DNA from: Opitutales bacterium
Lineage (GTDB): Bacteria > Verrucomicrobiota > Verrucomicrobiia > Opitutales > Seribacteraceae
Reading direction: 5' to 3'
NCBI GenBank assembly: GCA_029252505.1
Contig: JAQXBH010000109.1
Coordinates: 1-42,917 of the forward strand
DNA: 42,917 bases
Numbering within the stretch: the stretch's first letter is position 1; each line of letters opens with the position of its first letter. The notes under the pieces were generated by a model, which saw nothing but the letters and a program-made list of their open reading frames with translations, did not search any database and was not told the origin of the DNA. This document shows positions 6,645 through 42,917 of the stretch, piece by piece. A program made the translations under genes and the position numbers.

Positions 6645-6648
6645 TATT

Positions 6649-10899: not shown

Positions 10900-12171
10900 A
10901 TGGCCTTTCATATAAACTCAGATTCTAGTACCTCAATATCTCGACAATATTCAAATAAAGCAATTCAAGGCACGAAGAAAAGTATACAAAGAATAAGCAC
11001 TGGTCAAAAAATTGTTTCTCCTAGTGATGATGCTGCGGGACTTGCAGTCGCAAGTAAACTTGCGGGTAAAACAAAAAATCTGTTTAAATTAAAAGAAAAT
11101 TTTCAAAATTCATTATCTTTTCTGCAGATTCAAAATAGTATTATTGAGAATGCGGGAAAAATGATTACCCGAGCTAGCGAACTCAAACATCAATTTCACG
11201 ATTTAACAAAAAACAGTTCTGATAAGGCAAATTACGATGAAGAATTTAGAGAAATACAATTGCAATTAAGAGAACTGCAACAGCAAAAATTTAACGGAGT
11301 TAGTTTGTTTGCGAGTGGAAATGTGAAATCATTAGCCTCATCTTCTAATCATGCCAGTATTCTTAAAGTCGAACACCTCGATCACAGTAAATCGCTGGAT
11401 ATTCACAGGACTGGCATCTTCGATTCCTTGTTTATTGAAAAAAAACCAAACGAACAAGATGTTCCATTTCCCAATATTAATGGAGATGGTAATGAAACTA
11501 AACTGACGATTCCGTTAACTTCTCGTAATGGTGAAGTCACATGGAATATTCAATCTGGTTTTGCTGGAGACCGATTTACAATACAACAAGGCACAGATGT
11601 TTTGTTAGACGAAGTTTACGGAAAACCATTATTTGGTGCAAATCCTAATATCGTGTTCGGGGATGGTTTTACTGGTAATGCCAGCTCTAATGATCATCGA
11701 TTTGGTAAAGATCCAGCAACTGGTGGAACTATTTCATTTCCTGTTTCATCTATCAATGATACGGAAGACCTTACTTTCTTTGTTAATAAAGGAGGTCAAA
11801 CCTTGGCGACTGCAACGCAATGGGAAACTGACATTAAGATAACTTATAGTTCTACTCAAATGTCACTAACAGATGGTAACATTTATTCACTGGGAGACTT
11901 TGAATTTTCTGAGTTTTCAGGGTTCTCCGATGTAATATCAAATGCAATTGCACAAAACGGTTCCAGCCAATCGAGGATTAATTACGAGTATGAACATATC
12001 AACACTTCACAAATTCATTTATCAAGTGCTCATAGTAAAATTAATGATGCTGATTATGCCAAAGAATCCCTAAGACTAGCAAAATTTAATATCTTAAGCC
12101 AATCATCTGCTAAAATGATTGGACAAGCAAATCAATTGACAAAGCTTGCTATCAAAATCATGGGACAGTAG
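10900..12171 (+). CDS. flagellin
   Basis: A 423-residue flagellin, the filament subunit exported through the flagellar type III apparatus. The N-terminal D0/D1 helices are typical ('RISTGQKIVSPSDDAAGLAVASKLAG', about 32-57, and 'RELQQQKFNGVSLFA'), and so is the C-terminal helix ('SAHSKINDADYAKESLRLAKFNIL' to 'LTKLAIKIMGQ'). The middle, about 150-340, is a variable beta-rich surface region with acidic glycine-rich turns ('NINGDGNETK', 'IVFGDGFTG'). It has no cysteine that I can see. No other flagellar gene is in the window, so this is an isolated flagellin locus. The start is fixed by the conserved N-terminus 'MAFHINSD'. The gene looks more AT-rich than its right neighbours. Confidence 0.95.
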   Translation: MAFHINSDSSTSISRQYSNKAIQGTKKSIQRISTGQKIVSPSDDAAGLAVASKLAGKTKNLFKLKENFQNSLSFLQIQNSIIENAGKMITRASELKHQFHDLTKNSSDKANYDEEFREIQLQLRELQQQKFNGVSLFASGNVKSLASSSNHASILKVEHLDHSKSLDIHRTGIFDSLFIEKKPNEQDVPFPNINGDGNETKLTIPLTSRNGEVTWNIQSGFAGDRFTIQQGTDVLLDEVYGKPLFGANPNIVFGDGFTGNASSNDHRFGKDPATGGTISFPVSSINDTEDLTFFVNKGGQTLATATQWETDIKITYSSTQMSLTDGNIYSLGDFEFSEFSGFSDVISNAIAQNGSSQSRINYEYEHINTSQIHLSSAHSKINDADYAKESLRLAKFNILSQSSAKMIGQANQLTKLAIKIMGQ

Positions 12172-21038: not shown

Positions 21039-22505
21039 TTAACCAAATAACTCCGTCACAGCCTGAGCTTTGACCAACTCACGAGGTTGGTTTAGGTGAT
21101 TGTAGACGATAGTTTCCGGATCTATACCAAAGCCATGATAAATCGTCGCCAGTAATTCGCGAGGGTGAATGGGTTTATCCAATGGAGCAGATCCAGTCTT
21201 ATCAGACTCTCCATGAACATATCCCCGTCTAATTCCTGCTCCTGCGATAACACCAGTATAACAATATGGCCAATGGTCCCGACTCCCGCCGTCATTTCCA
21301 TTACCTGAAGTACTCACTCCTTTTTCAGGACTTCTACCAAATTCTCCGACACATACAACCATCGTTTCATCCAATAGTCCACGTTGATCTAAATCAGTCA
21401 TTAGTCCAGATAATCCCCTATCCAGCATAGGGGCAGATTGATCTTTCAATCGTTTTGGTAAATCTTTGTGTGTGTCCCACGAGTGATTATTAGAGTTTGC
21501 AACCTTCGGCCAAATTACCTCAACAACTCGCGTCCCCGCCTCCACCAACCGCCTGGCGAGGAGACAACTCTGTCCAAATGTATTGCGACCATAGGAATCT
21601 CGAATCGAGTCGGCTTCCTGATCTAGTGCAAATGCTTCCCTCGCACGTCCTGATGCAACCAATTCAAGTGCACGATCATAGTGCTGGTTTAAATTGTATT
21701 TCTCTACCGCCTTGTCAATTACCGGCATGGCATCGGACATGGCATCCCGTAATTTAGCCCGTCTATTGAGCCGAACCCCAAACATATCAGGTCTCATTTG
21801 TAAATCGTCCACCCGCAATTTAGCCATTTTTTGCATATCCATATCGTCTCCAGGAGGATAAAGAGTGTATGGGTCATAGGCTTTACCAAGAAAACCAGCG
21901 GTTCCTCCCTTCCCCACTACCCCGCTCTCTTGAAGTGGGCGTGGGAGCATAACAAATGGAAGCATTGGCTCAGATGTAGGTTTTATCCGTATTATATTGG
22001 ATCCAAAATTTGGGAAATCCTTTGGACTGGGTGGTTCAAGCTGACCAGAAGGGCTAACCTTGTCTGTAGTATAACCGGTCATCATTTGATAAATGGCCGC
22101 GGTATGATTGAACAAACCTTTCGGTGTGTAACTCACCGAACGCATCATGGTAAACTTATCATTAACCTTAGCCAGATTCGGTAAAAGTTCGGTGAAATTA
22201 ACCCCCGGAATTTTTGTTGGAATCGGTTTAAATATACTGCGGACATTATCAGGGGCATCTGGTTTGGGATCCCAAAGGTCTAAATGACTGGGACCGCCCT
22301 GTAAATATATCATGATAACACTTTTCGCCTGCCCCCAACCCGGTCCACCTCCACTCAGGGGGTTGGCAGATGCTTTCATTTGCAACATAGCACCCAGGGA
22401 TAAGCCTAACATGCTTGAGCCTCCAACTTTTAATACATCCCTCCGACTCATCGGCAAATGAGCGTCACATAAATCTCGTCCTAATTGTCCCGGTATTCCG
22501 ATCAT
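21039..22505 (-). CDS. DUF1501 family protein, Tat-exported (second copy)
   Basis: A 488-residue DUF1501 protein with twin-arginine motif '[10 protein letters not shown]' (about 20-29) and the same family motifs as the first: '[18 protein letters not shown]', '[10 protein letters not shown]', '[11 protein letters not shown]', '[18 protein letters not shown]'. It differs from the first copy through much of its length, so the two are old paralogues and not a recent duplication. It follows the giant PSD1 gene by 53 nt and precedes the TolC-like gene by 32 nt on the same strand. Biochemical role not established for the family. Confidence 0.92.
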
Positions 22506-22558
22506 AATAATATCCTAATTTAGTTTTTTTAAATTTTCAAAGATGTTAATTTCTCTGC

Positions 22559-25500
22559 CTAGCGGTTGAAAAGAAATGCAGGTGTGTTAATTAAAGCCCA
22601 TGTCAAATCCTGAACAGCGATCAGTCTTTTATTTTGCAAGTGCCCATTGCTTAGTGAAACGGCTCTGCGTAACCGAGCAACCTCAGGGGGCAAGGGAATC
22701 GGTTTCTTTGCCTCAGTTAAAACTCCCTCCAGTTTTACTAGTTGAGGATCTTTGGGATGTGGTTTGCTTACTTCCGCAAGCTGTTTGGTAAGTAATGCTC
22801 TCTCGGGATTGCTCTTCTTGAAGGCGTCGGAAAGAGTTTTGAGCTGTTCTGAACTACGCTTATTTCTAGCAACCGCAAAGATGCCTTTCACATTTTCAGG
22901 CAACCCAAAAGAAACCGGAGGTGGAACATTGGTAACTGCTAATCTAAAGCGTCCAAGAGAATGCTGACCGCTTTGAAACTGCTGCTTCAATGTAAGAGTT
23001 AAGTCAACAGGTCCTTTAAAGATAACCTTACCCTTAACCTGAAAGGAAGCAAAATGAACCTTGCCCATTTGAGGAGAAATGGCCCATCCATTTCGACTGG
23101 GAGCCACTTTACCATCGACGGCCGAGACCACAGGGTATCCACCTTGACTAAATGTGGCCAAGGAGTTTTCAAAGGAAAGTTTATGGGGAGCTTCATTTCG
23201 GTATAACTTAAGCGAACGGATTGCTACTCCATTATCCAATAGAAGCTGAATACCCTTTAAATCTTGTAGAGAAACAAAATTGAGTCGATATGATTTCCAA
23301 TTACTTGATTTAAGAATCTTCAATCCTGAGGAAATATTTTTTGGAGAATAGGATCCCGGCTCTGTTTTCCATCCCACTTTAGCAACAGCAGATTTCTTTG
23401 CCTTCGCCATAAATTCGATCGCAAAACTTCCCTTTTTATAAGAAAGATCAATGGCTAGGCTTGGCTTGAAAGTTTGGCCTGCTCCAGATTTGTAGTAAAA
23501 CCCTGATGGTCCCCCCCCATTATAAATTTTAAGAAGCACAAGATTTCGTCCTTTATTCAAGGTAAGAGTTATTTTTTCCTGATCTGGGGCTGCGGCTCTT
23601 CCAATATTATTTTCCAAAACCAACTTGCCGTTAAGATAAACTTTAATTCCATCATCACTACCTAAGTTCAAAGGGATTTTTGTCGGAGCATCTGAGTTAA
23701 TTACTTTCATTAAATAATTTGATGAGTTTTCAGCTGAAAACACAGTGCCGTATAACACCCCTTCTTTCCAATCTGGCCTTGCCTTCCAATTATGCTGAAT
23801 ATCACCATGATTAAAAACCTTATTCTCATCAAAAGCGTAGTCGAGTTCAGGACCTGCCTTGTCATCAAAGCCTACCCCCTTAAAAGGTCCGACATGATAA
23901 AAACCTCCTGATCTAACCCTCCCATTTGGTACGCTCTGAGATAAAAGGAGACTTTCATTTGAATCATGAAAATTTGTTTGAATTCCAGCTTTCCATTTGT
24001 TTTTTCCGCCTTTCGTTCCAAAATTCCAATCGTCCTTTACCTCCCAATTTTTCAAATCATTCGAAGGTTTTGCATGAACTTCGAGTTCAGTAAGAACAAA
24101 ATTCCCATCCCCAGGAGAACGACCCGGGCCTTTTTTGGGAAGCCTAGCGTCGGTCATCGCCTCCACTCGGACTCCTGTTATCGAGGACAAATGGGTGGTC
24201 GTTTTTACCACATAACTACCCTTTGCACTTCGACCTCCCACAAATACGGATCCATCTTTTTGATTTTCAAATTTGACCCCAGGCATTTGGGAAGTGACTT
24301 TCCCCAAGTCCAAGTTTTCCCACTTACTTATCCCTTGCGAATATTCATCTTCCCATTGAGCCAATCGTGCGGGGAGCGTTTGATCAAATAAGGAAACTGC
24401 ATCTTTTGCTTTTTTGATTTCCAGTTTTCGCTTTTCAGTGGCTACCTTAACTGCATGTGCAGTTTTTTCTCTGTAATCATTGATCTCAGCATTGGCCCGA
24501 CTGATCGCAAGTTTTCTCTCTCTTTCCTTAGCGTCAAGCGATTCTTTTATACCCCTCTCTTCTTCTTTCAATTGTTTAGTCAAACCTTGATGGTCATGTT
24601 GCAATTGATCAGCAAATAATTTCAGGCTTTGTTCGATCTCATTCTTCGATGCCGGTCGGTTGAGTATACGAAGAAATAAATTGTTGATTAATTTATGATC
24701 ATCCTTTTGAGCGTTTGCCATTTTCGCGACTGCATTGTTGGGATCTGAAATCGCGTTATTTACAGTAGGTCCACTTACAAGAGCCATAATCGGTCCCAAC
24801 TGGAGCTCACCATTACGTTCACATTCACAGGAAGTTTCACGAGCAGGACGACCGAAAGTACTCAAAAAACCGTCTGATAATTTAATTCCCACATCCGGTA
24901 AGGATGCCGCACGCGTCCCCGAAGGAACTCCTGGAAACTTAGTCACAGACCCCGTTACACGATATACCGCATCGAGCAGGGTTTCAGCTGGCAAGCGTCG
25001 AGGATGGGCATGAGAAAAATTAATCTCATCGTCCTCGTTCCATTTGCTCGATTCAACAGAAAGTTGATAGGTATTAGATTTACATATTAGCTTGATGATA
25101 TGCCTGACATTAAATCTACTTTCTATGAATTCTTTCTCCAAATAGTTCAAAAGCGCAGGATTGCTTGGTGGATTACCAGCCCGTATATCATCAATAGGTT
25201 CGATAATTCCGACCCCAAAAAGATAACCCCAAATTCGGTTTACATAACTTCTCGCAAAGTAAGCGTTATCGGGTGAAGTCATCCATTCGGCTAACTTTGT
25301 ACGACGAGACATCTCTGGTTTAGCCTTAAATTTGACGGGATAAGGAAAGTCAGGTGCAACAACCTCACCAGTCCTCTCATGCTTAACCTCGCCGATTTTG
25401 ACATCCTTAACAAATTCGTAAAGTGGTTTTCCTCGCTCTACCGCAGTCTTCCCGATTTCGTTTTTACCCGAAGCTGGATCTTTTTCCAATTTAAATTGAG

Positions 25501-28432
25501 CAAAATGAGCGGCCATTTCATAGTATTGGTTTTGCGTCCATCGTTCGAAAGGATGATCGTGACATTTATTACAATTAAATCGAGTGGCCAAAAATAAATG
25601 GGTCGTATTCTCCATGGTGTCTTCAGGCGTCCTCAGTATTTTAAAATAGGATGCCGGTGGGTTTTCCTTATTAGAACCTGTGGCCGTCAAAATTTTTCGG
25701 ACAAATTGATCATAAGGAGTGTTATTTTTAATTTCTCCTCGTATCCATTTCCTTAATTGTGTGGCTCCCGCACGACCAAGAAATTTTCCGTTTACCTGAA
25801 GTAAATCAGACCACTTGTTAGTCCAGTGCTCGACAAACTCTTCACTCCCCACCAATTGATCGATAAGATGGCCACGCTTTTCGCTGCGTGGTTTTTTGAG
25901 ATCCACAAACTGAAGGACTTGTTCTGCGGTGGGAGGTAGTCCAATCAAGTCCAAATAAACCCGACGAATAAAATCAAGATCATCACTTATTACGGATGGA
26001 AGAATTTTCATTCTTTTCCACTTCTCTGCAACAAATTGATCGACTGGATTGTTCACTTGGGGCTCGATCCACTGAAAGCCCTTACGATTCCCCATAACGG
26101 TCATGGTTGTGGCTGCATAGCAACCTTCGTAACGAGCGAGAATGGGTGCTTCGCCCCTCCGAAGCGAAGTGAGTAAACCAAAATTATCATGCTCTGCAAC
26201 TTCTCCATTTCCACTTGTAATAAAAGCCTCTCGAGTGACATCCCTCCTAACCCCGTTCTTAAAAGTCGCAACGACACGCATTTGTTGTTTAGAGCCAATA
26301 TTCGAGACCACCGGATCATTCGGAAATAATTCAATTCTGCTTACTCGAACTCCCTTCTCGTTAAGAGAAGCCCCAGCTGCGATCCATGAGCGGATCACCT
26401 GATAGTATTTTGACTTTTTATCGGTCAGTTTACCACCTTCATGTGCAACGCTCCCTGAGGCCTTCAAAAGCATTAAGCTACTATCAGGTGCGGCTACACT
26501 AACTCTTCGACAAGCCATATCGTCTGAAAAACCACGAACATCAAAGACCGCATCGTAACCTCTTAAGGAAAGTTTAAACCCATTCTTCCCGTCTTTCGCG
26601 CCGTGGCAAGTCCCTGCATTGCAACCAAGTTTCGATATAATGGGATTTACATCTTCAATAAAGTCAGGAGTCCATTTTTTTTGCATTCCGCTCACCTTGA
26701 CTTGAACAGTTTTCTTCTTTCCACCAACACTTGCCGTAAGATTTCCTGAACCATTTTTCTGTGGAGTGAACAAACCTCGATGGTTCACCTTACCGAATTC
26801 TCCCTCGATACTCCATTTCGCCATTCGAGTTACATCAACAAATTCACCGTTGCCTAAATCCGCGGTCAAAAGCAATTGAGAATAATCGATTGATCTGGTT
26901 ATTGAAATCTTACCTGGTCGAACGATAAGATTTTTTACTTCGAGCCCCTTCGCAGGCAACTCAACATTGGGGAGAGGCGGGTCGCTTTCCATTTGTGTCA
27001 TTACATTACTTAATTCCTTAGTCGCCTTCCTGTTCAAAGGAACTGATATAAACTTTTTAATAATTTCCCCCGAAGAAACCTTGTGCAGACGAACGAGTCC
27101 ATCATATCCTCCCGAAGCCAAGGTTTTTCCGTCGGGAGAACATGCAAGTGAATAGATTGGTGATTCGGAGACTTGCCTCCTCCATAGTTCCTTGCCCGAT
27201 TCAATCTCAAAGCAAGAAATTTCTCCTTTCCCATTCAAACTGCTTCCAGCAAAGCCAAGGTTTCCTTTAATATTAAAGCAGACTGAGAAAATTCTCCCTA
27301 TTTGCGATTTATATTCACGGATTTGATTGGGGTTTCCTCCACCCGCCGGAGCCGCCTTGGTGGCTTGTCTAAATAATTTTGGTTTACCATCAGCACCTCC
27401 CACTAACAACTCAGTTTTCCCGGGTCTTACCGCGATTGAATTCTGCCCTCCACTCAAAATTCCGGGTGTGTGGGTAGTTACATTACCAATAAACCTTTCT
27501 GACTTTACATCCGTTTGCTTTACCGTCTTGTCACGACTGACAGAAAAAATCGAGTTTCCATCTTCCGAAAAAACAGTCCCTCTCACCCAGTCATCATGTC
27601 CCGACATGTAGGAAACCTGTTTTCCATCATTGGACTGAATAACTCGAACTGATGAATCACTCCCTCCAAAACCGAGCAATGCTCCATCCGGTGACCACGA
27701 AACCCCGTATAATGTATCGTAAGTTACGGAGTGTGATAATTTTAATTTTTGGGCTCTCCAGTCCCAAACCTGAACCTCCCCCATTCTTCCAGGTTGCCCT
27801 CCCGCTAAAGCGAGGCTCTTTCCATCCGGTGAAAAAGTAACCGATTCAATTCGCTCAGACATCCCAACCAATCTGTTTACAATCGAACTTCCGTCTGATT
27901 TGTATACAATAGCTTCATGGAAACCAGAGAGAGCAAGGTGCCTACCATCTGGAGAATAATCGAGAGAAAGAATTAACGGTGGTATTTCATAAATGGGAGG
28001 ATTTTCAATACTATATTTAGGCCCGGAATTGGCAGGAGAATCATCTTTCGCTCCTTCTTCAATCCACTGTACTATTTTTTGGTACTGATCAGGGTGCAAT
28101 GCATTTGCACTTTTTCCTTTCGGCATCTCAGACGTTCCGTCTGGTTTAATCTTGATTTGATCGATAAGATAACTCCCAGCAGGATTGCCAGGTACAATTG
28201 CCAGTTTACCCGTTTCTCCTCCCCTCAGTAAAGATTGGAAATCAGTCATTAGATAATCTCCCTTCATTTTTGCAGGTTGGTGGCAACCATTGCAATTGGC
28301 CTGAAAAACAGGTCGGATATCATTATAAAAACTAATCTCATTCGCCTCTTCTGCCCCGCAAATAAAAGACAACAAAAAGCCACAAATAAAATGGTAAAAC
28401 TTGTTAGAGAACTTTCGAACGAAATGAGGCAT
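22559..28432 (-). CDS. giant PSD1-type protein with WD40 repeats, three haem-like motifs and an inserted carbohydrate-binding-like block
   Basis: Start placed at the ATG at 28432, which gives a proper signal peptide; the track start at 28474 adds 14 residues. Numbering here follows the 1971-residue track ORF. In order: haem motif 'CNGCH' (61-65); WD40-like propeller, about 165-470 ('SLDYSPDGRHLALSG', 'SVSWSPDGALLGFGG'-type blades); Ig-like BIG2 segment ('WSIEGEFGKVNHRGLFTP'); a 'CNAGTCH' motif near 616; a second Ig-like segment; DUF1549 (about 815-1020) with 'CNKCH' near 967; DUF1553 ('FARSYVNRIWGYLFGVGII'); a charged coiled coil (about 1310-1390); and beta-rich modules including a PA14-like 'NLGSDDGIKVYLNGKLVLENN'. 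The usual DUF1553 ending 'DLTWALINTPAFLFNR' comes only at the extreme C-terminus. First gene of a five-gene run. Confidence 0.9.
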   Translation of the reverse strand: MPHFVRKFSNKFYHFICGFLLSFICGAEEANEISFYNDIRPVFQANCNGCHQPAKMKGDYLMTDFQSLLRGGETGKLAIVPGNPAGSYLIDQIKIKPDGTSEMPKGKSANALHPDQYQKIVQWIEEGAKDDSPANSGPKYSIENPPIYEIPPLILSLDYSPDGRHLALSGFHEAIVYKSDGSSIVNRLVGMSERIESVTFSPDGKSLALAGGQPGRMGEVQVWDWRAQKLKLSHSVTYDTLYGVSWSPDGALLGFGGSDSSVRVIQSNDGKQVSYMSGHDDWVRGTVFSEDGNSIFSVSRDKTVKQTDVKSERFIGNVTTHTPGILSGGQNSIAVRPGKTELLVGGADGKPKLFRQATKAAPAGGGNPNQIREYKSQIGRIFSVCFNIKGNLGFAGSSLNGKGEISCFEIESGKELWRRQVSESPIYSLACSPDGKTLASGGYDGLVRLHKVSSGEIIKKFISVPLNRKATKELSNVMTQMESDPPLPNVELPAKGLEVKNLIVRPGKISITRSIDYSQLLLTADLGNGEFVDVTRMAKWSIEGEFGKVNHRGLFTPQKNGSGNLTASVGGKKKTVQVKVSGMQKKWTPDFIEDVNPIISKLGCNAGTCHGAKDGKNGFKLSLRGYDAVFDVRGFSDDMACRRVSVAAPDSSLMLLKASGSVAHEGGKLTDKKSKYYQVIRSWIAAGASLNEKGVRVSRIELFPNDPVVSNIGSKQQMRVVATFKNGVRRDVTREAFITSGNGEVAEHDNFGLLTSLRRGEAPILARYEGCYAATTMTVMGNRKGFQWIEPQVNNPVDQFVAEKWKRMKILPSVISDDLDFIRRVYLDLIGLPPTAEQVLQFVDLKKPRSEKRGHLIDQLVGSEEFVEHWTNKWSDLLQVNGKFLGRAGATQLRKWIRGEIKNNTPYDQFVRKILTATGSNKENPPASYFKILRTPEDTMENTTHLFLATRFNCNKCHDHPFERWTQNQYYEMAAHFAQFKLEKDPASGKNEIGKTAVERGKPLYEFVKDVKIGEVKHERTGEVVAPDFPYPVKFKAKPEMSRRTKLAEWMTSPDNAYFARSYVNRIWGYLFGVGIIEPIDDIRAGNPPSNPALLNYLEKEFIESRFNVRHIIKLICKSNTYQLSVESSKWNEDDEINFSHAHPRRLPAETLLDAVYRVTGSVTKFPGVPSGTRAASLPDVGIKLSDGFLSTFGRPARETSCECERNGELQLGPIMALVSGPTVNNAISDPNNAVAKMANAQKDDHKLINNLFLRILNRPASKNEIEQSLKLFADQLQHDHQGLTKQLKEEERGIKESLDAKERERKLAISRANAEINDYREKTAHAVKVATEKRKLEIKKAKDAVSLFDQTLPARLAQWEDEYSQGISKWENLDLGKVTSQMPGVKFENQKDGSVFVGGRSAKGSYVVKTTTHLSSITGVRVEAMTDARLPKKGPGRSPGDGNFVLTELEVHAKPSNDLKNWEVKDDWNFGTKGGKNKWKAGIQTNFHDSNESLLLSQSVPNGRVRSGGFYHVGPFKGVGFDDKAGPELDYAFDENKVFNHGDIQHNWKARPDWKEGVLYGTVFSAENSSNYLMKVINSDAPTKIPLNLGSDDGIKVYLNGKLVLENNIGRAAAPDQEKITLTLNKGRNLVLLKIYNGGGPSGFYYKSGAGQTFKPSLAIDLSYKKGSFAIEFMAKAKKSAVAKVGWKTEPGSYSPKNISSGLKILKSSNWKSYRLNFVSLQDLKGIQLLLDNGVAIRSLKLYRNEAPHKLSFENSLATFSQGGYPVVSAVDGKVAPSRNGWAISPQMGKVHFASFQVKGKVIFKGPVDLTLTLKQQFQSGQHSLGRFRLAVTNVPPPVSFGLPENVKGIFAVARNKRSSEQLKTLSDAFKKSNPERALLTKQLAEVSKPHPKDPQLVKLEGVLTEAKKPIPLPPEVARLRRAVSLSNGHLQNKRLIAVQDLTWALINTPAFLFNR

Positions 28433-28516
28433 ACAACCAATACTGATCTCAATTAATCTCGAGACAAGGGTCAAAGGGAGATTTATAAAATTAAAATCCT
28501 TGAAGATAGTTATAAT

Positions 28517-32798: not shown

Positions 32799-34910
32799 CT
32801 AATCAAGTGGGATAATATGAGCAGCGTCCACAATTACATAACCTTCAGTATCCTCATTAAAAACTTTCAGATCGTATTTTTCTCCTTTTTTGAAAACAAA
32901 AGAGCCTAATGAATGCCATAAATTATCTGTACTGCCCTCTTTCCTCTGATCTACCATTACAGAAGATAATTTTTTTTCATCCTTAATTTCATATCTAACT
33001 TTTCCTGCTCGGTTGGCAGAAGCTACATATGAAACCATTATTTCATGCCGTCCTTCTTTAGGTGCCTTGAAAGGAAAGCAAGCGGTACGCATCCCCTTCC
33101 CTCCATTACCGTCATGGAAATAAGAATTGCCCACAAAAGGACGCAGTGAAGTACTTTTGACCCACTCCCCCTCGAAGCTTAAATTTGTACCATCCACCAC
33201 CAGACCGCTCATTTGGGCTGGATCGATTCCGCGCCCATACGCAACACGGTTTGATTTTTCCAATTCAATCACTTGTCCATCCTCAACCAATCGAGTTTTT
33301 AACTTGTCATAGGAGATATCCTGAACGGGAATATCCTCCTCGATCGCAAGAACGGCGGCGGTGGCGGCAGACTGGGCTAAAATCATAAAGACTGGTTCCA
33401 TCCGAATTGAGCCAAATGCGATATGGGAGGAAGAGAGACAAATTGGAACTAACAAGTTACTGCACTCGTCAGCCTTAGGAATAATGGAGCCATAAGAAAT
33501 TTGATAAGGCTCGCCCGGATGAACCTGTACATCGCCCTCATTTTGAACATATGCCATACCGTTTTCATCTTTGGCTACATAGCGCTGAACATGATGGGAA
33601 TCCATTGTGTAAGAGCCCATTCCAATGGATCGGGGGGTCTCTGATTTCCCGCGCAGATTCAATTCAGTAATTACGAAATTACTGACCATACGCCTGGCTT
33701 CTCGCACATAAATCTGGTGGGGCCAATGACCATTTAATTCAAATTCGTCTTTCGCCAATCCCCAGGTGTTCATTCTTTTACGAATATCTTCAGGCACACG
33801 AGGATCATTACATAAAAAATAAAAATAGCCTTTTTGATACCTTTCATGCTCGAGGATAATTTCCGCCCGCTCCCGATAACCCGCTTCTGGGTAAAGATAA
33901 TTCATTCCGATATTATCTGTGCTGAATGGACCATGGTTATTAGTATCTGTCTTGCCATTCGGAATCGGGTCAAATTTCCCAAATACATGAGTGGAACCCT
34001 GCACCAATGTACGTAGTAAGAGTTCGTACTGTGCGGGATCATACTGGTCAGGCCTTGAAAATGGAATTCGATTTTCCTCCACTTGAGTTAAACACAAACG
34101 AAAATTATAAGCCTGCATTTTTGAATCTCCCTGCCCTTCTTCACCAGGTAATTGGGAACTAATCCTGGATAACAAGCCACTGCTCGGATCCCCTTTTATT
34201 ATAAAGGGGTCAACTTTCCCATTAAATTGATGGGATCGTGCATTTTTAGTCTGCACACCACTTAATGATTCACCATAAACTGAGTTCCCTTCTCGTCCCA
34301 CGAAATAGCTTACTCCCGCAGAAGCCATAAGGTCTCCCTCGTAAGTACAATCGAGAAAAGCGGATCCATTGTAAGTATTTCCGGAAAGGGTAGATATTGA
34401 GATAATTACCCCACCCTTTTTTTGAACACCATTAGTTCGGTCCAACTTTTCCTCCCGGTAGACCTCTAATTCATTTTCCTTCACCCATGATTCAAAAATC
34501 AATTCTGCAACATGTGGTTCAAAAATCCACATTGTCCTACGGTCTCCATCAATTGCAGGGGCACCCTGACCTCGGTTGCCATACTCTTCCATTTTTTGCC
34601 ACCTCCACGAATCAACGCTTTGGTAATGCCTCCATACTCGATGATAAAAATCGCGAGCTATCCCGCCAATTGCTTCTTTCTTCCCACTATCTGTCCATCC
34701 TAAACCACTGCTTGAAAGACCACCTAAGTGTTGATCGGGAGAAACCACCACCACTGATTTCCCCATTTTCTTAACCTGTACCGCAGCACTAATTGCGGAT
34801 GAAGTGCCCCCATAAATAACCACATCATGGGTATACGACTTTTCTGCCAAAGCAAAAAAGGAAGTGACTAAAAGGAATGTAGTTAAAAATGTGGTTCGGA
34901 TCATAAGCAA
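32799..34910 (-). CDS. exported FAD-dependent oxidoreductase with golvesin-like C-terminal domain
   Basis: 703 residues. A signal peptide (1-22) is followed by a FAD-binding Rossmann segment 'HDVVIYGGTSSAISAAVQVKKMG' (about 28-50) and the family region 'HLGGLSSSGLGWTDSGK'. This is the FAD_oxidored family pattern. Residues about 575-703 form a beta-rich module: 'SYFHDGNGGKGMRTACFPF', 'SNRAGKVRYEIKDEK', 'LWHSLGSFVFKKG' and 'TEGYVIVDAAHII' match the golvesin/xanthan-lyase C-terminal domain, a likely polysaccharide-binding part. The reaction is unknown. Transcribed leftward, 66 nt before the sigma-factor gene, and divergent from the haloperoxidase gene across a 194-nt AT-rich gap. An internal start at the second or third codon (MIRTTF) is equally possible. 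Confidence 0.9.
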   Translation of the reverse strand: MLMIRTTFLTTFLLVTSFFALAEKSYTHDVVIYGGTSSAISAAVQVKKMGKSVVVVSPDQHLGGLSSSGLGWTDSGKKEAIGGIARDFYHRVWRHYQSVDSWRWQKMEEYGNRGQGAPAIDGDRRTMWIFEPHVAELIFESWVKENELEVYREEKLDRTNGVQKKGGVIISISTLSGNTYNGSAFLDCTYEGDLMASAGVSYFVGREGNSVYGESLSGVQTKNARSHQFNGKVDPFIIKGDPSSGLLSRISSQLPGEEGQGDSKMQAYNFRLCLTQVEENRIPFSRPDQYDPAQYELLLRTLVQGSTHVFGKFDPIPNGKTDTNNHGPFSTDNIGMNYLYPEAGYRERAEIILEHERYQKGYFYFLCNDPRVPEDIRKRMNTWGLAKDEFELNGHWPHQIYVREARRMVSNFVITELNLRGKSETPRSIGMGSYTMDSHHVQRYVAKDENGMAYVQNEGDVQVHPGEPYQISYGSIIPKADECSNLLVPICLSSSHIAFGSIRMEPVFMILAQSAATAAVLAIEEDIPVQDISYDKLKTRLVEDGQVIELEKSNRVAYGRGIDPAQMSGLVVDGTNLSFEGEWVKSTSLRPFVGNSYFHDGNGGKGMRTACFPFKAPKEGRHEIMVSYVASANRAGKVRYEIKDEKKLSSVMVDQRKEGSTDNLWHSLGSFVFKKGEKYDLKVFNEDTEGYVIVDAAHIIPLD

Positions 34911-35104: not shown

Positions 35105-36355
35105 ATGAAAAATACATTCTACCTTTTACTGTTATATTTAAATACTATTTTACTATTTGGAAAACCAACCGAACTCATTGAATGGAGATCAGAATTTTTA
35201 AAGGCAGTACGCGAAGAATCTCTTTCACCAAACCTAATGGTTAGAAATTTGGCTATTTTTTCAATTTCCGTTCATGACGCAGTAAATAGTCTAGAAAAAA
35301 AGTATCATCCTTATCTAAAATTCCACAATCATGATCTCAAAACATGGGATTTAAACTCGGTGGTTGCAGGTTGTGGAAGCTATTTAGGAAAAAGCCTTCA
35401 TCCAGCAAGAGCGGTAAACTTTGAAAAACTTGCCTATTTTACCAAGAGAGAAAATTCTGAAGTGATGGATAAATCCTTTTTATTCGGCCGACAGGTAGCT
35501 CGATTTATGTTACAATACAGAATAAACGATGGAGCAACTACCACTGTAACCTACATTCCAAGAACAAGTCCAGGATTGTGGAGAAGAACTCCAAACTTTT
35601 TTCGCCCACCTGAACAACCTCATTGGAGAAAAGTAAAAACATTCGCAATTAAATCATTAGATGATTTCATGCCCCAACCACCTCCCCATCCAACAGATAA
35701 ACTATTTCTAGATTCCCTAAAGGAAGTAAAAATCTTAGGTAGTAAAGACAGCCAAATTCGATCAAAAGAACAAACTTTCATTGCCCAGTTTTGGAAAGAC
35801 TTCAGTTATACCCAAACTCCACCGGGCCATTGGAATGATATTGCGACAGAGTTATGCAAGGCAGAGAAGTATAGCTTGATTGAAGAAGCCAGAATATTTG
35901 CAATGCTTAACATTGCACTCGCGGATAGCGGTATCATTTCATGGGAGTGCAAGTACCGTTATCATGTATGGAGGCCAATTCATGCCATACGACATGCTGA
36001 TCAATTCCCACAATCTAAAAAATATGCAAATAAAGAATGGGATTCACTACTTGAAAGCCCGGCACATCCAGAATATGTGTCCGCACATAGTTTTTTTTCG
36101 GGAACTGCCTCTACAATTCTCGCCATGATTTACGGTAATGATGAATATAAATTTAGAGTTAAAAGCGACCAGTTCCCAAATCAAAAAAGGGAATTTAATC
36201 GTTTTTCTTCCTGTGCCGAGGAAATAGGTTTAAGTAGGTTATATGGAGGTATTCACTACCGATTTTCAAACGATAGAGGTATTGAAAGTGGAAAAAAGCT
36301 AGGAATGTTCATTTATAAGCAAACCTTAGGACCCTTGACAAAATCTAAAAAATAA
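35105..36355 (+). CDS. vanadium-dependent haloperoxidase / PAP2-superfamily protein, exported
   Basis: 416 residues with a signal peptide (1-19). The three vanadate/phosphate-binding motifs of the superfamily are in order: 'KYRYHVWRPI' (K283, R290), 'EYVSAHSFFSG' (S326, H328) and 'SRLYGGIHYRFS' (R378, H384). All expected ligands, including the proximal histidine H384 and the acid-base histidine H328, are kept, so it may be an active vanadium haloperoxidase or an acid phosphatase; sequence alone does not decide. The second motif has SAHS where many relatives have SGHS. 'WNDIATEL' before motif one is also common to bacterial members. It lies 17 nt before the giant secreted protein, so the two are probably cotranscribed. 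Confidence 0.88.
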   Translation: MKNTFYLLLLYLNTILLFGKPTELIEWRSEFLKAVREESLSPNLMVRNLAIFSISVHDAVNSLEKKYHPYLKFHNHDLKTWDLNSVVAGCGSYLGKSLHPARAVNFEKLAYFTKRENSEVMDKSFLFGRQVARFMLQYRINDGATTTVTYIPRTSPGLWRRTPNFFRPPEQPHWRKVKTFAIKSLDDFMPQPPPHPTDKLFLDSLKEVKILGSKDSQIRSKEQTFIAQFWKDFSYTQTPPGHWNDIATELCKAEKYSLIEEARIFAMLNIALADSGIISWECKYRYHVWRPIHAIRHADQFPQSKKYANKEWDSLLESPAHPEYVSAHSFFSGTASTILAMIYGNDEYKFRVKSDQFPNQKREFNRFSSCAEEIGLSRLYGGIHYRFSNDRGIESGKKLGMFIYKQTLGPLTKSKK

Positions 36356-36372
36356 CATCTAAAATTTACATT

Positions 36373-39300
36373 ATGCGCCTATATGTCCTAACAATACTTT
36401 ATTTTATAACAATTTTTAAATCATTTTCAAATAACCAGCGGATAGTTGGAGATATGAACGGAGATGGAATTGTAAACCTAGTTGATACCATCAAAATGGT
36501 GAATCATATTCATGGTACAGGTTTTACAACCGAACTTGAGACTTTAAAATGGCAGGCGGATATTAATGGAGATGGTCTCGTGAATTCTTTTGATGTAGAA
36601 AGTTCATTAGAGTTTGTCTTTAAGCGCGAATCAATCAAGTCGCTCCCTTTCGCAGGAATTATTAATACATTTCCTTACGCAGGTGAAGGTGATATCTCAC
36701 TCACGAGAGAATTTGTCATTCACTTCAACATGCCCCTTGCACAGGGCACTGTCTTAACTAATGAAGCTTTCTTTGCTTATTCAGGGGACAGTCTACAAGT
36801 TACATCCGCCAGGCTTTCTTCAGACCGTATGAAAGCGACTCTTTTCTTGAACGGTTTTCGCTGGCCGTCCAATTCGACAGTAACTGTTACCCTTAACGGC
36901 GGAGGATTAACGGATTTTATAGGCAGGGGCATTGATGTCGATGGAGACGGCGTAGAAGGTGGAATTAAAACTTGGACTTTTTCAACTCTGGGTGTTGAAG
37001 CAAGTGACCCCTCTACAATTGTTGAAGGTCAAGTTTTTGATTCTGATAATTCAAATGGAGAAAAACCTTTGCATGGAGTTCTCATTACTGTCGTTGGAAA
37101 TGAGGAGGCTATGAGCGTATTAACCGATTCAAATGGAAGTTTCCAACTTTCCTCAGCACCTATAGGAAGATTTTTTGTGATGGTGGACGGACGCTTAGTG
37201 GGAGCCCCAAATGGAGAGACGCTCAGTCAAGGTTCATGGAAAGATAGAGATTATTACACCTTCGTGGGCAAGGCGTGGGAAGCCGTGCCAGGGAAAACAG
37301 TAAAAGCCACCAAGTACGGAAAGTTTGCAGAAAACGGCACCTACATAGCTGATTCCAGAGATGGAAAAATATTCTTACCGTTAGTAAAAAAAGGTGCCCT
37401 TAAGCCGGTTGATGCCACAAAAAAAACGAGTATTTCCTTTGCATCGGGATACTTGGATGGAAACGATTCGAACCTTATGTCGATGCTGGCTGCTACTTCT
37501 ATTACCATCCCTCCAGGCTCGTTACAATCAGATGATGGTACAACTGGTGGAAGTGTGGGCATGGCTCCCGTTGCTCCTGATCGTTTACCCGAACCTTTAC
37601 CCGAAAGTTTAAAAATGCCTTTGGTCATTACCATTCAAACAGATGGCCCTTCCAATTTTGATATCCCTGTGCCCGCGCGATTTCCCAATGTCGACAACCT
37701 CCCTCCCGGTGCAAAATCTGCCTTATGGAGTTTTGACCACGATACTGGAGTGTGGGAAATCTCTGGCCCGATGACAGTAAGTGCCGATGGTAAATTCCTT
37801 GAAACTGACCCCGGCGTGGGAATTCGCCAACCAGGATGGCATGGATCTTCACCAGGTGCTCAAGTTTTTGGCAAAGCTGTTACGACAGGCCCTAGTATTA
37901 CAAAACCTAAAAAAGGAGCTTGCGGACTGAGTCATGCATCTATGTCGATTACCGAGGGAGATTTTACTAACTTGGGCAGGCTATCCGAAGGAATAGAAGA
38001 GACCATTTTCGGACAAAATGAGAGTGATCTTAGTTTTACGAAAGATGTACTCGGTGCTGGAAATCGCTTTGGTAATACTCAAAATGCGGGAGGTAGCGAC
38101 TGGAATCAATTTCGAACGCACGCGGAAAAAGATGCAAAGCTCCATGCTACCATTTCCCGTACCGTTTCGACCTTGCTTGGTTCAGAAGATTTTTGGACGA
38201 CTTTCTCAACCACCGCTTCTACAATAAGAGACAATGCAATTATCGCGTCAAAAAATAGTTCCGCTCAGACCAAGATAAATTCTGCTCATCAGGTATTTCT
38301 TAGCGATTTAAATCGGGCAAAAGCAAAGATTTCTAGTCAAATCAGCAAATGGGAAAATTACTCGGTTTCACTCTCCGCATTAATTGGCCAAACCACAGGA
38401 ATCTCAGGACATGCTGTCTTGCAGACTGACAGAACCCTTATTGCAAAGGAAATTAGTTCCACATTAAAAGCATACCGTTCTATCCCGGGAGGAAATAGTC
38501 GACTCGATAAACAGCTCAAAAAATTTGCTCAATCATGGCAAAAATTCCTCCAAGCCACCCTCAATGGAAACCTGCACCTTTACAAAGGAGAATCATTTGT
38601 TTTCTTAAAGAGAATTGGTTCCGAAGCCGAAGAAACTCGTGTGCCTCCGATTGCGGCTCAAAGAATTAGGGTTGGAACTGGTGGATCCTATGACGCAATC
38701 GTACGTCCAAACAGCTGGTATGAAGCATGGATGCTCGAACCGACCACACTAGTCATTGGTTCAACTACTTTCATCTCCCCCCGCAATGGAGGGAATGGTC
38801 CTGTGCCTCCCATCCCCCTCTGTCATGACGACAAACCAGACAGTGACTTTGACTATCTGAGTGACCGGGGTGAACGGATTGTCGGTACTAATAAAAGCCA
38901 GCCAGACACCGACGGGGATGGAATACCAGACGGATTCGAAATACTCAACGGAACCGACCCGAGTGGTGGAAATCCTGTTTTTACCGGCATCCTAGCTACC
39001 ATTGCTCCCACTCGCGGTTTTTCCGATTTTGTTACTACCGGAAACGACCTTGCCATTCTTGGTAATGGGCCAAGTGGAGTGGACATATTCGATATTGGAT
39101 CTGGAGTTCGTCCAATCAAACAATCCACTTTTAATACCCCAGGCTCGGTTCGAAAAGCTGCCCTGTCTGAAAATTATCTGGTCATTGCGGATGGAAAAGC
39201 AGGACTCACAGTTCTCGACCTGACTAGTATAGAAAGTCCCTCACAAGTATGGAACATCCCACAGGAATCTCCTGCAAACGCGGTTGCTGTGGCTGGTAAG

Positions 39301-42300
39301 ATCGCGTTTGTCGGATTGGAAAATGGGAAAATTAAGAGTTATGATCTTTTTAGTGGGCAAAAAATCGATGAGATTGGCTTAGGTCAAACCATCGAAGATC
39401 TCGGAATGAATGGGGATTCGCTCTATGCCCTCGAGAATGTTCAACGACAAAGAAGCCGATTACATTCTGTTCCTACATTCAACGGCCGTTTTAAAGACGA
39501 TGATGGTCCATTTCTTCCCCGCAACTCAGTAGATACTCCAGGACATCGTCAATGGGGACTTAAAAACGGATTAGGACGAAGACTTTTTGTTGGAGACGAC
39601 TTTGCCTACGTAACCGACTTAATGGGTTTCAACCGTATAGATCTTTCAGATCCTACAGTTCCAGTTCGAGCGGAAAGAACCAAAACACCTTCACGCGGTT
39701 GGCGTCAGACAGTTTCCAATGGGTCTGGTCTAGCTATTGTTCTTGAACATCGAAACAGCCCTAAATTTGCGAAAGCTGATCCAAGTATTTATACAGTTCA
39801 AAATAATGGAGATTTTTTACGAGCGGGTGGATATATGAAAAACTTTGAAACTCGTTTCCCCACTCCCGGCAATGCAGGTGCGGTCTCGATCTACAACGGG
39901 CTTGCCTATGTCGCTGACGGAACCAAAGGTCTACAGGTCGTCAATTACCGGGCGTATGACATTAATGGAGTCAAGCCTACCCTGTCAGTCACCTTAAATG
40001 ATATGAACGGAACGGTGGAAGAAGCAAAACTCCTTACACTACGAGCTTTCGTTCAGGATGACATCCAGGTTAAAAATGTGGACTTCTTTGTAGACGGTGA
40101 AAAAGTTTTCGTCGATGGAGGCTACCCATTTGCACATACCCTCGAAGTTCCTCTTCGCAAAGATCAGGCAACCCTTCGTCTCCGCGTGATTGCCAGAGAT
40201 ACAGGAGGAAATGAAGCCTACTGGCCCGGTCCTGGTGCAAGTAATGAACATACCCTAACTATTGCCGACGATTTGGTGCCTCCCCAAGTAGTGACTTATT
40301 TTCCCCGGGAAAACTCAACCGTTTTACCGGGAGAAACAGTAGTCGCAGTTTTTAATGAGCGCATGGCACCCGACTCGATCCATGTACGGTCAATTAGGTT
40401 GGATCGTCTTAATGACAATAATACATCGACTCCAATTGAACTTGCTTCCGTTGTGTACGACGATGCGACTCAATCCGCCTACGCCACCCTTCCCGCAACT
40501 CTTCCTCCTGCAAAATATCAATTGTATGTGAACGAACTCGCAACCGATTTACCTACTAATGCCCTCAAAACTCCGGCTCCTGTTCGTAACTTATTTGGTC
40601 CCAGTGAAATTCATGGCAAGTTTTGGTTCGATCGAAATCATAACACGGTGCAAGACACAGGAGAAGAAATTCTTAAAGAATGGACTGCATTTCTTGACTA
40701 TAATAACAATGGTGAACTCGATACCGGTGAGCCTAATGCCACTTCTGACCAAGCAGGGAACTACTCCTTTACGAATCTCTACCCTGGTGGATACTCCGTT
40801 TCGGAGGTATTGCCACACGGTTGGACTCAAACATTCCCGAAAGGACAAAACCTTGGTGCAACAGAACAATTTACAAATGTGGGCTGGATCAGTGAGAGTG
40901 ATCAATCTGCAAATCAGACTTTTGCAGTTGATACCCTTGGAAACGGATGGACTGCCGGTATTGTTCCCGACGGAAATTTCTCCATTGGTTCAACCAATTT
41001 TGATGGTAATGGTACCGCCGGACAACTTTTTATAGCGAGGGTAGCCCCCACCGGATTAGTGAACAAGGTTGTCACATTAGGAAATCCCGACATTAATAAT
41101 ACAGGTCTCTCTCCCAACCTCATTATCAAGCCGGATAATGATGCAGGTATTTGGTTAACCGGATCTTTTTCGGGTAATGGACTTTCTATTCCAGGAACTG
41201 TTTTAGATGCAAATAACACCACTGCTTTTGCAACCCGTTTTGATCAGGACTTCAATGCAAGCCTCACTACCGTTTTAACAAATTCTACTATTTTTGACCT
41301 TTCTCCTGATCCCGATGGACGAGTCGCAATTGCCGGGACATTTACTGGTTCAACAACGATGGGAACTACTACACTCACTTCCAGTGGGGGAACGGATGCA
41401 TTTATTGCCAAAATTGCTTCCACAGGAAAAATTGCTTGGGCAAAATCACTTGGGGGCAGTCAATGGGAATCGGTTCAATCTATCTCAACCGATGTAAATG
41501 GGAGTCTATGGATAGCGGGCGATTCGAATTCATCCAATTTTACAGCCAATACAACAAACCTTGACCTGTCTGGAAATGCTGGTGGCTACCTTGCTATGTA
41601 CAATCAATCAGGCTCAAACTTATGGGCGATTGATCCAATTGGTCAAGTTAGCTTACTCAATGATGGTTCTGCCGCATGGTTCCTTGATCAAAATGGTTCA
41701 ACCTTCCTCATTAAGAAAGTATCCGCGAGCGGTACGATTACTTCAATTACATCCATTACTGGTTCTATTGTAACCGATCTGCTTTCCACGACTGATGGAG
41801 GCGTCAATGTATCACTCTCCACCACCTCAGGAACAATTAGTGTCAATGGAGTAAATGTCTCTGCAAGCACAGGCAACAGTGGACTGCTATTGAAACTAAA
41901 AAGTAATGGTGACTTAGCGTGGTCTATCCCACTCTCTACGAATGGCTCCGATTCAATAACTCAACTTGCCCGTGGTTCATCACCTGACACTTGGGCAATG
42001 GGTACTGTGGGCACAACCAATCAATCACTTACCTATGGCACAAAGACCATTGACTTAAATTCTTCTACCGGAGTTCTCTTAAAAATCGATCCGATCGGAG
42101 AGGTTACTTCCATATGGGCAATTCCTGTGGTGGGTAATCTCTATGTAGATGTGAACGATAATGTCTGGGTAACCGGAAATAATAGCGGAGATCCGGGACA
42201 AACGAGGTCGATTACAATTGGTGCCCTGCCCCTTCAAACAGAATCGGCAAAGGGTAATTACATCGGACGAATTGGTCGTGCGGGTTCGGAATCCCATACC

Positions 42301-42917
42301 ATTCAACTTGGCTCTGGTGAAATCCAACAAAATAAAAACTTTGGAAATTCCCTACCGCTCATCGAAAACAGAAAAGCGATCTGTGTGGGAGGACCCAATG
42401 AAGATGCTTCACGCTCGGTGGTTACTGACTCAGCAGGTAATGCGTACTATGCCGGTGATTTCACAGGCCATACAGAATTTGGTGGTCGCAAGCTTAAGAG
42501 CGACGGGCAAAACGATGCCATGTTTGTTAAGTTTCTCCCCAATGGAAAAATTGACTGGGCTAAAAACTTTGGTGGAGATGGCGACGATCTTGGCCATGCA
42601 ATCTTTGCAGATGATAACGGTACCCTCTTTGCCTCAGGCACTTTTCAGGGAACCGCCAAGTTCGGGGACTTTACCTTAGTATCGGCGGGCATGCGCGATA
42701 TTTTTGTTCTCCGTCTGGATGATAATGGTACTCCAACCCATGCCTTCCGGGCAGGCGGCCCACGGGATGATGATGCATTTTCTTTGGTCGCAGATTCCAA
42801 TAACTCCGTTTATGTCGGCGGTGCAATTGAACAAACCGCTGATTTTGGTGCTTACCAACTCACCAGTCAGGGAAATCGAGATGCCTACCTCCAAAAATTA
42901 GACTACAACCTGTCGGC
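36373..42917 (+). CDS. giant multidomain secreted protein, 3' end outside the window
   Basis: The frame is open from ATG 36373 to the window edge (2181 complete codons read, no stop), which is why the ORF track omits it; the small track ORFs here are shadows. After a signal-like N-terminus (MRLYVLTILYFITIF) comes a dockerin-type pair of calcium loops ('GDMNGDGIVNLVD' at 27-39, 'ADINGDGLVNSFD' at 62-74). Then follow: Ig-like Big_5 segment (about 97-210); carboxypeptidase-regulatory-like segment ('VEGQVFDSDNSNGEKPLHGVLI', about 217-275); helical region (about 660-770); thrombospondin-3-like calcium loop 'PDTDGDGIPDGFE' (about 850); LVIVD-like propeller (about 877-1190); second Big_5 (about 1300-1395); SdrD-B-like segment (from about 1410); SBBP-type propeller repeats (about 1510 to the end). 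Likely an adhesin, scaffold or surface-layer-associated protein. Confidence 0.9.
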   Translation, partial: MRLYVLTILYFITIFKSFSNNQRIVGDMNGDGIVNLVDTIKMVNHIHGTGFTTELETLKWQADINGDGLVNSFDVESSLEFVFKRESIKSLPFAGIINTFPYAGEGDISLTREFVIHFNMPLAQGTVLTNEAFFAYSGDSLQVTSARLSSDRMKATLFLNGFRWPSNSTVTVTLNGGGLTDFIGRGIDVDGDGVEGGIKTWTFSTLGVEASDPSTIVEGQVFDSDNSNGEKPLHGVLITVVGNEEAMSVLTDSNGSFQLSSAPIGRFFVMVDGRLVGAPNGETLSQGSWKDRDYYTFVGKAWEAVPGKTVKATKYGKFAENGTYIADSRDGKIFLPLVKKGALKPVDATKKTSISFASGYLDGNDSNLMSMLAATSITIPPGSLQSDDGTTGGSVGMAPVAPDRLPEPLPESLKMPLVITIQTDGPSNFDIPVPARFPNVDNLPPGAKSALWSFDHDTGVWEISGPMTVSADGKFLETDPGVGIRQPGWHGSSPGAQVFGKAVTTGPSITKPKKGACGLSHASMSITEGDFTNLGRLSEGIEETIFGQNESDLSFTKDVLGAGNRFGNTQNAGGSDWNQFRTHAEKDAKLHATISRTVSTLLGSEDFWTTFSTTASTIRDNAIIASKNSSAQTKINSAHQVFLSDLNRAKAKISSQISKWENYSVSLSALIGQTTGISGHAVLQTDRTLIAKEISSTLKAYRSIPGGNSRLDKQLKKFAQSWQKFLQATLNGNLHLYKGESFVFLKRIGSEAEETRVPPIAAQRIRVGTGGSYDAIVRPNSWYEAWMLEPTTLVIGSTTFISPRNGGNGPVPPIPLCHDDKPDSDFDYLSDRGERIVGTNKSQPDTDGDGIPDGFEILNGTDPSGGNPVFTGILATIAPTRGFSDFVTTGNDLAILGNGPSGVDIFDIGSGVRPIKQSTFNTPGSVRKAALSENYLVIADGKAGLTVLDLTSIESPSQVWNIPQESPANAVAVAGKIAFVGLENGKIKSYDLFSGQKIDEIGLGQTIEDLGMNGDSLYALENVQRQRSRLHSVPTFNGRFKDDDGPFLPRNSVDTPGHRQWGLKNGLGRRLFVGDDFAYVTDLMGFNRIDLSDPTVPVRAERTKTPSRGWRQTVSNGSGLAIVLEHRNSPKFAKADPSIYTVQNNGDFLRAGGYMKNFETRFPTPGNAGAVSIYNGLAYVADGTKGLQVVNYRAYDINGVKPTLSVTLNDMNGTVEEAKLLTLRAFVQDDIQVKNVDFFVDGEKVFVDGGYPFAHTLEVPLRKDQATLRLRVIARDTGGNEAYWPGPGASNEHTLTIADDLVPPQVVTYFPRENSTVLPGETVVAVFNERMAPDSIHVRSIRLDRLNDNNTSTPIELASVVYDDATQSAYATLPATLPPAKYQLYVNELATDLPTNALKTPAPVRNLFGPSEIHGKFWFDRNHNTVQDTGEEILKEWTAFLDYNNNGELDTGEPNATSDQAGNYSFTNLYPGGYSVSEVLPHGWTQTFPKGQNLGATEQFTNVGWISESDQSANQTFAVDTLGNGWTAGIVPDGNFSIGSTNFDGNGTAGQLFIARVAPTGLVNKVVTLGNPDINNTGLSPNLIIKPDNDAGIWLTGSFSGNGLSIPGTVLDANNTTAFATRFDQDFNASLTTVLTNSTIFDLSPDPDGRVAIAGTFTGSTTMGTTTLTSSGGTDAFIAKIASTGKIAWAKSLGGSQWESVQSISTDVNGSLWIAGDSNSSNFTANTTNLDLSGNAGGYLAMYNQSGSNLWAIDPIGQVSLLNDGSAAWFLDQNGSTFLIKKVSASGTITSITSITGSIVTDLLSTTDGGVNVSLSTTSGTISVNGVNVSASTGNSGLLLKLKSNGDLAWSIPLSTNGSDSITQLARGSSPDTWAMGTVGTTNQSLTYGTKTIDLNSSTGVLLKIDPIGEVTSIWAIPVVGNLYVDVNDNVWVTGNNSGDPGQTRSITIGALPLQTESAKGNYIGRIGRAGSESHTIQLGSGEIQQNKNFGNSLPLIENRKAICVGGPNEDASRSVVTDSAGNAYYAGDFTGHTEFGGRKLKSDGQNDAMFVKFLPNGKIDWAKNFGGDGDDLGHAIFADDNGTLFASGTFQGTAKFGDFTLVSAGMRDIFVLRLDDNGTPTHAFRAGGPRDDDAFSLVADSNNSVYVGGAIEQTADFGAYQLTSQGNRDAYLQKLDYNLS

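Follow-up and report, generated by a model that had tools for sequence, protein, structure and literature searches.

A split SdrD_B domain in a giant protein of an Opitutales bacterium very probably holds an eight-bladed beta-propeller in its loop

The window, that is, the whole stretch of 42,917 nucleotides analyzed here, is one entire contig (JAQXBH010000109.1, here G000:C143) of the incomplete genome of a marine Opitutales bacterium (GenBank assembly GCA_029252505.1), and its nearest named relatives are Opitutales/Opitutia metagenome-assembled genomes (MAGs) or assemblies of the Verrucomicrobiota. It carries the gene of a giant, most likely secreted, multidomain protein (36373..42915, plus strand), which encodes 2181 amino acids and whose frame is open at the contig end. 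Residues 1411-1489 and 1973-1992 of this protein very probably make up one SdrD_B domain, with an eight-bladed propeller at residues 1490-1972 nested in its loop. A sequence-only reading of the window had proposed such a whole propeller within a single Ig-like fold, with the first half of an SdrD-B-like domain ending near residue 1489 and the second appearing near 1975. The strings that it quoted were all present where it had placed them, FWFDRNHNTVQD at 1417-1428, YSFTNLYPGGYSVSEVLPHGWTQTFP at 1464-1489, TDAFIAKIASTGKIAWAKSLGG at 1674-1695, and HTIQLGSGEIQQNKNFGN at 1975-1992, and both boundaries were borne out by the profile searches described below.

First, the N-terminal half of the host domain (40603..40839, plus strand, residues 1411-1489), which ends at GWTQTFP, was compared with known domains. 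Residues 1417-1489 matched positions 7-75 of the 112 positions of Pfam SdrD_B (PF17210) with E=2.3e-12 and a score of 47.5 bits (curated cut-off 29.7); the motif W.D.N..G..D.GE ... G.Y.F..L.PG.Y.V is present, and the half also matched the SdrD structure 10ps in PDB (E=1.8e-7). The partial Pfam match was dropped as proof of a split, as the match stops at position 75 in many SdrD_B domains that are intact. Because a truncated match by itself proves little, the C-terminal half (42289..42348, plus strand, residues 1973-1992, ESHTIQLGSGEIQQNKNFGN) was examined separately. The terminal hairpin ending in FG is present there, displaced by the insert. A 19-position matrix, built from the ends of 27 intact domains outside the window family, ranked residue 1973 as the top site in all 2181 amino acids (15.15 bits, runner-up 4.78 bits), a score attained by 0.2% of 1000 whole-protein shuffles. 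The equivalent site in the homologue from genome G222 also ranked first (20.0 bits). A full-domain hidden Markov model (HMM) of 101 positions, made from intact SdrD_B domains and searched without filters, aligned to the window protein in two separate, collinear segments, positions 2-82 on the N-terminal half and 80-101 on the C-terminal half. The same complementary halves were found in three of the three proteins containing both, namely the window protein and the homologues (L096 and L097) from G008, where the C-terminal segment is 78-101, and G222.

Intact SdrD_B domains of the same subtype and phylum were then used for comparison. These read ...Y.V...P..W.QT.P, about 4-5 residues, and then H.V.L..GE......FGN, as in PPEWEQTYPAGGAAHVVELSPGETAEIAFGN from G182, and such intact QT.P...FGN domains were present in L068/L127, L126, L128, L131 and others, in agreement with the earlier statement that uninterrupted domains run from the one motif into the other. 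The homologue search suggested by the sequence-only reading thus gave insert-bearing relatives (G008, G019 and G222) and intact domains elsewhere; among orthologues of the giant protein itself none lacking the insert was found, the intact counterparts being other SdrD_B proteins.

All loci were also surveyed for an SdrD_B N-terminal half followed by a C-terminal half with no other N-terminal half between. The 132 pairs obtained had a median gap of 2 residues and a 90th percentile of 27. One false and one doubtful case aside, gaps of more than 100 residues occurred only in the window family (477, 480 and 709 residues), in a G646 protein with two such domains (318 and 223), and in a family with inserts of about 190 residues. 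The false case was L216, whose gap of 1029 residues resulted from a false C-terminal half (reading of the sequence puts the real one at about 190 residues), and L203 (gap 136) was not counted owing to its weak N-terminal match. Of the two G646 inserts, the first is similar to the YVTN propeller found in an archaeal S-layer protein (1l0q, E=2.7e-6). A second propeller type is thus nested at this position in a protein unrelated to the giant one, which lends further backing to the nesting of whole propellers. The second G646 insert is propeller-like by eye only and had no match in PDB. Inserts of about 190 amino acids in the same loop were found in G572 (two loci), G938 and G842, to which sequence reading adds G944; one of them was tested against Pfam, with no match. 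As these inserts belong to unrelated types, this SdrD_B loop has likely been used independently at least three times. The G646 protein (L180, 2016-7709, minus strand, G646:C100) has 1898 amino acids, with three SdrD_B domains plus a cyclophilin domain; one SdrD_B domain is intact, one holds a YVTN-like propeller of about 320 amino acids and one a propeller-like insert of about 220, both in the same loop. In the family with inserts of about 190 amino acids (L216, L217, L218, L219 and L220), the insert is followed by a C-terminal half ending in FGR.

The insert itself (40840..42288, plus strand, residues 1490-1972) is a 483-residue SBBP/CylK-like beta-propeller of eight blades. It fits the SBBP-type pattern of repeated four-stranded blades with D..G..Y/W..G and DAF[VI]AK motifs, and a blade profile grown from SBBP proteins among the collected loci detected seven blades, missing one degenerate blade (about 1750-1798). 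By sequence, the insert matched CylK in PDB (phmmer E=1.1e-7). Two AlphaFold2 models were made, model 1 of residues 1400-2007 with four homologues and model 2 of residues 1488-1995 with trimmed Sporocytophaga rows added; the latter were trimmed after MAFFT had misaligned their last blade onto the SdrD_B C-terminal half, and both alignments were shallow (4-6 rows). Eight blades were visible in both models, and the top Foldseek match of both was CylK (9e-13 and 1.3e-13). The predicted local distance difference test score (pLDDT) was about 80-90 across most blades of model 1 and averaged 71.7 in model 2, in which the strand pattern was counted as eight blades. The data showed that the roughly 485 residues between the halves are SBBP-type repeats, as had been read from the sequence.

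In model 2, blade 8 had three strands only, and its fourth, closing strand was not placed. A candidate for the closing strand is FTNVGWI (40870..40890, plus strand, residues 1500-1506), a placement made from its position relative to blade 1 and by analogy with a free-standing Sporocytophaga propeller, which begins with its closing strand. If blade 8 is closed by this N-terminal strand, the two ends of the propeller would lie side by side, as insertion into a loop requires, and would thus fit the loop.

Homologues of the giant protein were found in G008 (94% identity over 1995 residues), G019 (67%) and G222 (62%, a complete gene of 3702 amino acids), with fragments in G036 and G006; other members of the order share N-terminal parts only and their C-termini differ. 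In G222 a LamG domain (PF13385, 45.6 bits) sits in blade 7 of the nested propeller, so that the nesting there has three levels, SdrD_B, propeller and LamG. A LamG-like domain in the second propeller region of the same protein is interrupted by RCC1 repeats. In the G222 locus L082 (G222:C12), the LamG domain of the nested propeller and the later LamG-like domain with its RCC1 array occupy residues 1921-2147 and 2743-3040 of the 3702-residue protein.

The split could have other origins, and these were weighed against the nested arrangement. An assembly chimera or a frameshift fusing two genes might be suspected, as several MAG contigs end near the repeats, and it is true that the homologous contigs of G019 and G008 end inside the insert and soon after it, respectively. 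However, the gene is a single open frame and the same order is present in three separate assemblies, including a contig of 237 kb; the arrangement is therefore no assembly fault, and a chimera is extremely improbable. We also considered that a propeller jumped into an SdrD_B domain whose remnants no longer fold together and serve as mere linkers, a decaying relic for which the length of the insert and the unfolded host in the models would speak. Against this, omega between the window and G008 was 0.05 for the N-terminal half and 0.09 for the C-terminal half (0.058 for both combined), compared with 0.12 (0.124) for the insert. Both halves are under strong purifying selection, and the host domain is therefore maintained. 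Both halves are kept in the orthologues (92% in G008, about 51% in G222), with the hallmark residues of the host retained at about 51% identity, and the N-terminal half is 68% identical to that of G222, more than the insert (48%). A relic is thus very unlikely, although not to the same degree as a chimera.

More can be said for the reading that HTIQL...NFGN belongs to the propeller, either as the fourth strand of blade 8 or as a linker together with the initial strand of the second propeller, while residues 1411-1489 would be a shortened SdrD_B domain sufficient in itself. In model 1, HTIQ forms a short strand directly after the third strand of blade 8, the spacing of C-strand, turn and D-strand is compatible with this, 'L-G-[GS]' loosely resembles SBBP D-strands, and GEIQQNKNFGN, with 1.0 bit in a D-strand matrix, scores higher than the 99th percentile of positions. 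Several results weigh against the nested arrangement: the HTIQ strand of model 1 (weak, beside the propeller, pLDDT about 44); the pLDDT below 40, or nearly so, of both SdrD_B halves in the same four-row model; the failure of the D-strand matrix to favour FTNVGWI for closing blade 8; the barely matching Pfam SBBP model on the insert (E=0.26, below cut-off); the contig ends mentioned above; and the shortness of the C-terminal half, whose HMM segment of about 22 residues was, as expected at this length, not significant by itself. AlphaFold2 left the halves unfolded because the alignment was shallow, and a search of viral contigs for relatives of the halves with which to deepen it found none. In contrast, the HTIQ segment is not a strand in model 2, it scores 15-20 bits as an SdrD_B C-terminal half in two diverged homologues, the blade profile finds nothing there, and the same C-terminal motif trails unrelated inserts in other proteins. 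Assignment of this segment to the propeller is therefore improbable, and the outcome that the sequence-only reading had named as contrary, the 1975 region in the propeller and 1410-1490 folding alone, was not obtained. Its idea of a propeller within one Ig-like fold gains from the complementary profile segments, the C-terminal scores in the diverged homologues, the selection on the halves and the intact relatives; the structure predictions confirmed the propeller and did not decide how the halves pack.

We favour the nested arrangement, in which the two halves would pack into one SdrD_B fold, as their collinear matches to a single domain profile suggest. Most strands of the host, which is Ig-like and prealbumin-like, would precede the insert and its final hairpin would follow it, with the propeller occupying the loop that precedes the last beta-hairpin. 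Held at both ends in a small rigid domain, the propeller would be looped out to the side of the chain of Ig-like and propeller domains, and this projection would expose its faces for binding. The likely role of the SdrD_B loop would be that of a two-point display socket, and its purpose may be the rigid display of a ligand-binding propeller, for the binding of polysaccharide, surfaces or partners. No evidence of catalysis by the nested propeller was found, and its likeness to CylK does not imply the chemistry of that enzyme.

As in SdrD_B (PF17210; staphylococcal SdrD B repeats, PDB 10ps and 4jdz), the host has the same motifs in its N-terminal two thirds and a terminal hairpin that closes with FG[NY], but in the window about 485 residues separate this last hairpin from the rest of the domain, and the protein is a Verrucomicrobiota secreted scaffold rather than a sortase-anchored MSCRAMM. 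The best match of the insert in both sequence and fold is the CylK beta-propeller (PDB 7ron/7fh6; PMC8916777), which has seven blades and is C-terminal to a Ca-binding domain in an enzyme (PMC8916777), whereas the insert has eight blades inside an Ig-like loop. The blade pattern is shared with SBBP repeat proteins (PF06739) such as Sporocytophaga L099/L100, whose free-standing propeller has an N-terminal closing strand; those propellers are N-terminal, stand alone and have seven blades by motif count, and their blades have diverged less than the nested ones. The insertion of one domain into another is a known principle, and A1-B-A2 insertion architectures (PMC13114784) likewise have a host made discontinuous by an inserted module, in some cases recursively. 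In a survey of 2.7 million domains, 77% of events had an insert smaller than its host, with medians of 115 and 199 residues (PMC13114784), in contrast to the insert of about 480 residues in a host of about 100 described here, which in G222 carries a further insert. The present variant is unusual in that the insert is about five times as large as its host, that unrelated modules have used the same loop, and that in one homologue the insert is a host in turn. In the literature searched, we found no description of a propeller nested in a domain of SdrD_B or CnaB type, although such absence is not proof.

The remainder of the giant protein contains, in Pfam order, dockerin, Big_5, carboxypeptidase-regulatory-like, TSP3, LVIVD propeller, Big_7, a second Big_5 and the partial SdrD_B. 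The dockerin type I-like domain lies at 36448..36597 (residues 26-75; PF00404, E=1.5e-6), the best of two stretches of LVIVD propeller repeats at 39139..39222 (residues 923-950; PF08309, E=4e-12), and the Big_7 Ig-like domain at 39976..40173 (residues 1202-1267; PF17957, E=3e-6), all on the plus strand. SBBP repeats continue past the second host half, as had been noted earlier: a second SBBP propeller starts at 42349..42915 (plus strand, residues 1993-2181) with three blades (blade HMM E=2.9e-16, 9.8e-22 and 1.4e-16; Pfam SBBP E=1.8e-4) before the contig ends. Contig G000:C85 (4259-5413, minus strand) very likely carries the missing 3' end of the gene; it begins within the last SBBP blade, terminates in a divergent InlB B-repeat-like region and is 57% identical there to the end of the G222 protein; the middle part of the gene, between the two contigs, is missing. 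Because of an apparent signal peptide, judged from sequence alone, the dockerin-like domain and the tandem Ig-like and propeller modules, the protein is most likely a secreted or surface scaffold.

Directly upstream of the giant gene, by 17 bases, lies a PAP2-superfamily gene (35105..36355, plus strand; PF01569, E=4.9e-7), which adjoins the giant gene in G008, G006, G222 and G019 as well; this conserved adjacency suggests that the two are expressed jointly. Its motifs KYRYHVWRP, SAHS and SRLYGGIHYRF resemble those of vanadium-dependent haloperoxidases. A gene at 32799-34910, divergent from the giant gene and syntenic with it, encodes a flavin adenine dinucleotide (FAD) oxidoreductase that bears a Golvesin C-terminal domain. 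Elsewhere, two DUF1501 genes, each beside a PSCyt1/PSCyt2/PSD1 (planctomycete-type cytochrome) gene, are present at 5151-9471 and 21039-28474 (minus strand), the second also bearing a WD40 propeller, and a flagellin-like gene (Flagellin_N plus Flagellin_C) lies at 10900-12171.

Beyond this one protein, we consider it moderately probable that the SdrD_B loop before the hairpin is a recurrent insertion socket in Verrucomicrobiota, which would have independently taken up at least three unrelated modules and whose inserts would accept further inserts. The modules found at the loop are the eight-bladed SBBP propeller, YVTN-type or small propellers and the domain of about 190 amino acids; the further inserts are the LamG domain inside the propeller and, elsewhere in the G222 protein, the RCC1 repeats inside the LamG-like domain. 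If the socket is real, extracellular scaffolds would grow by Russian-doll nesting and not merely by end-to-end addition. The usual annotation of such proteins gives a truncated SdrD_B followed by repeats, so that nested displays are overlooked. The present case breaks the usual size rule of small domains inserted into large ones and shows one particular loop in repeated use by unrelated modules. With intact relatives as controls, these natural examples may reveal what lets a loop take in a module several times larger than the host domain, which would be useful for protein engineering and for understanding the evolution of giant bacterial surface proteins.

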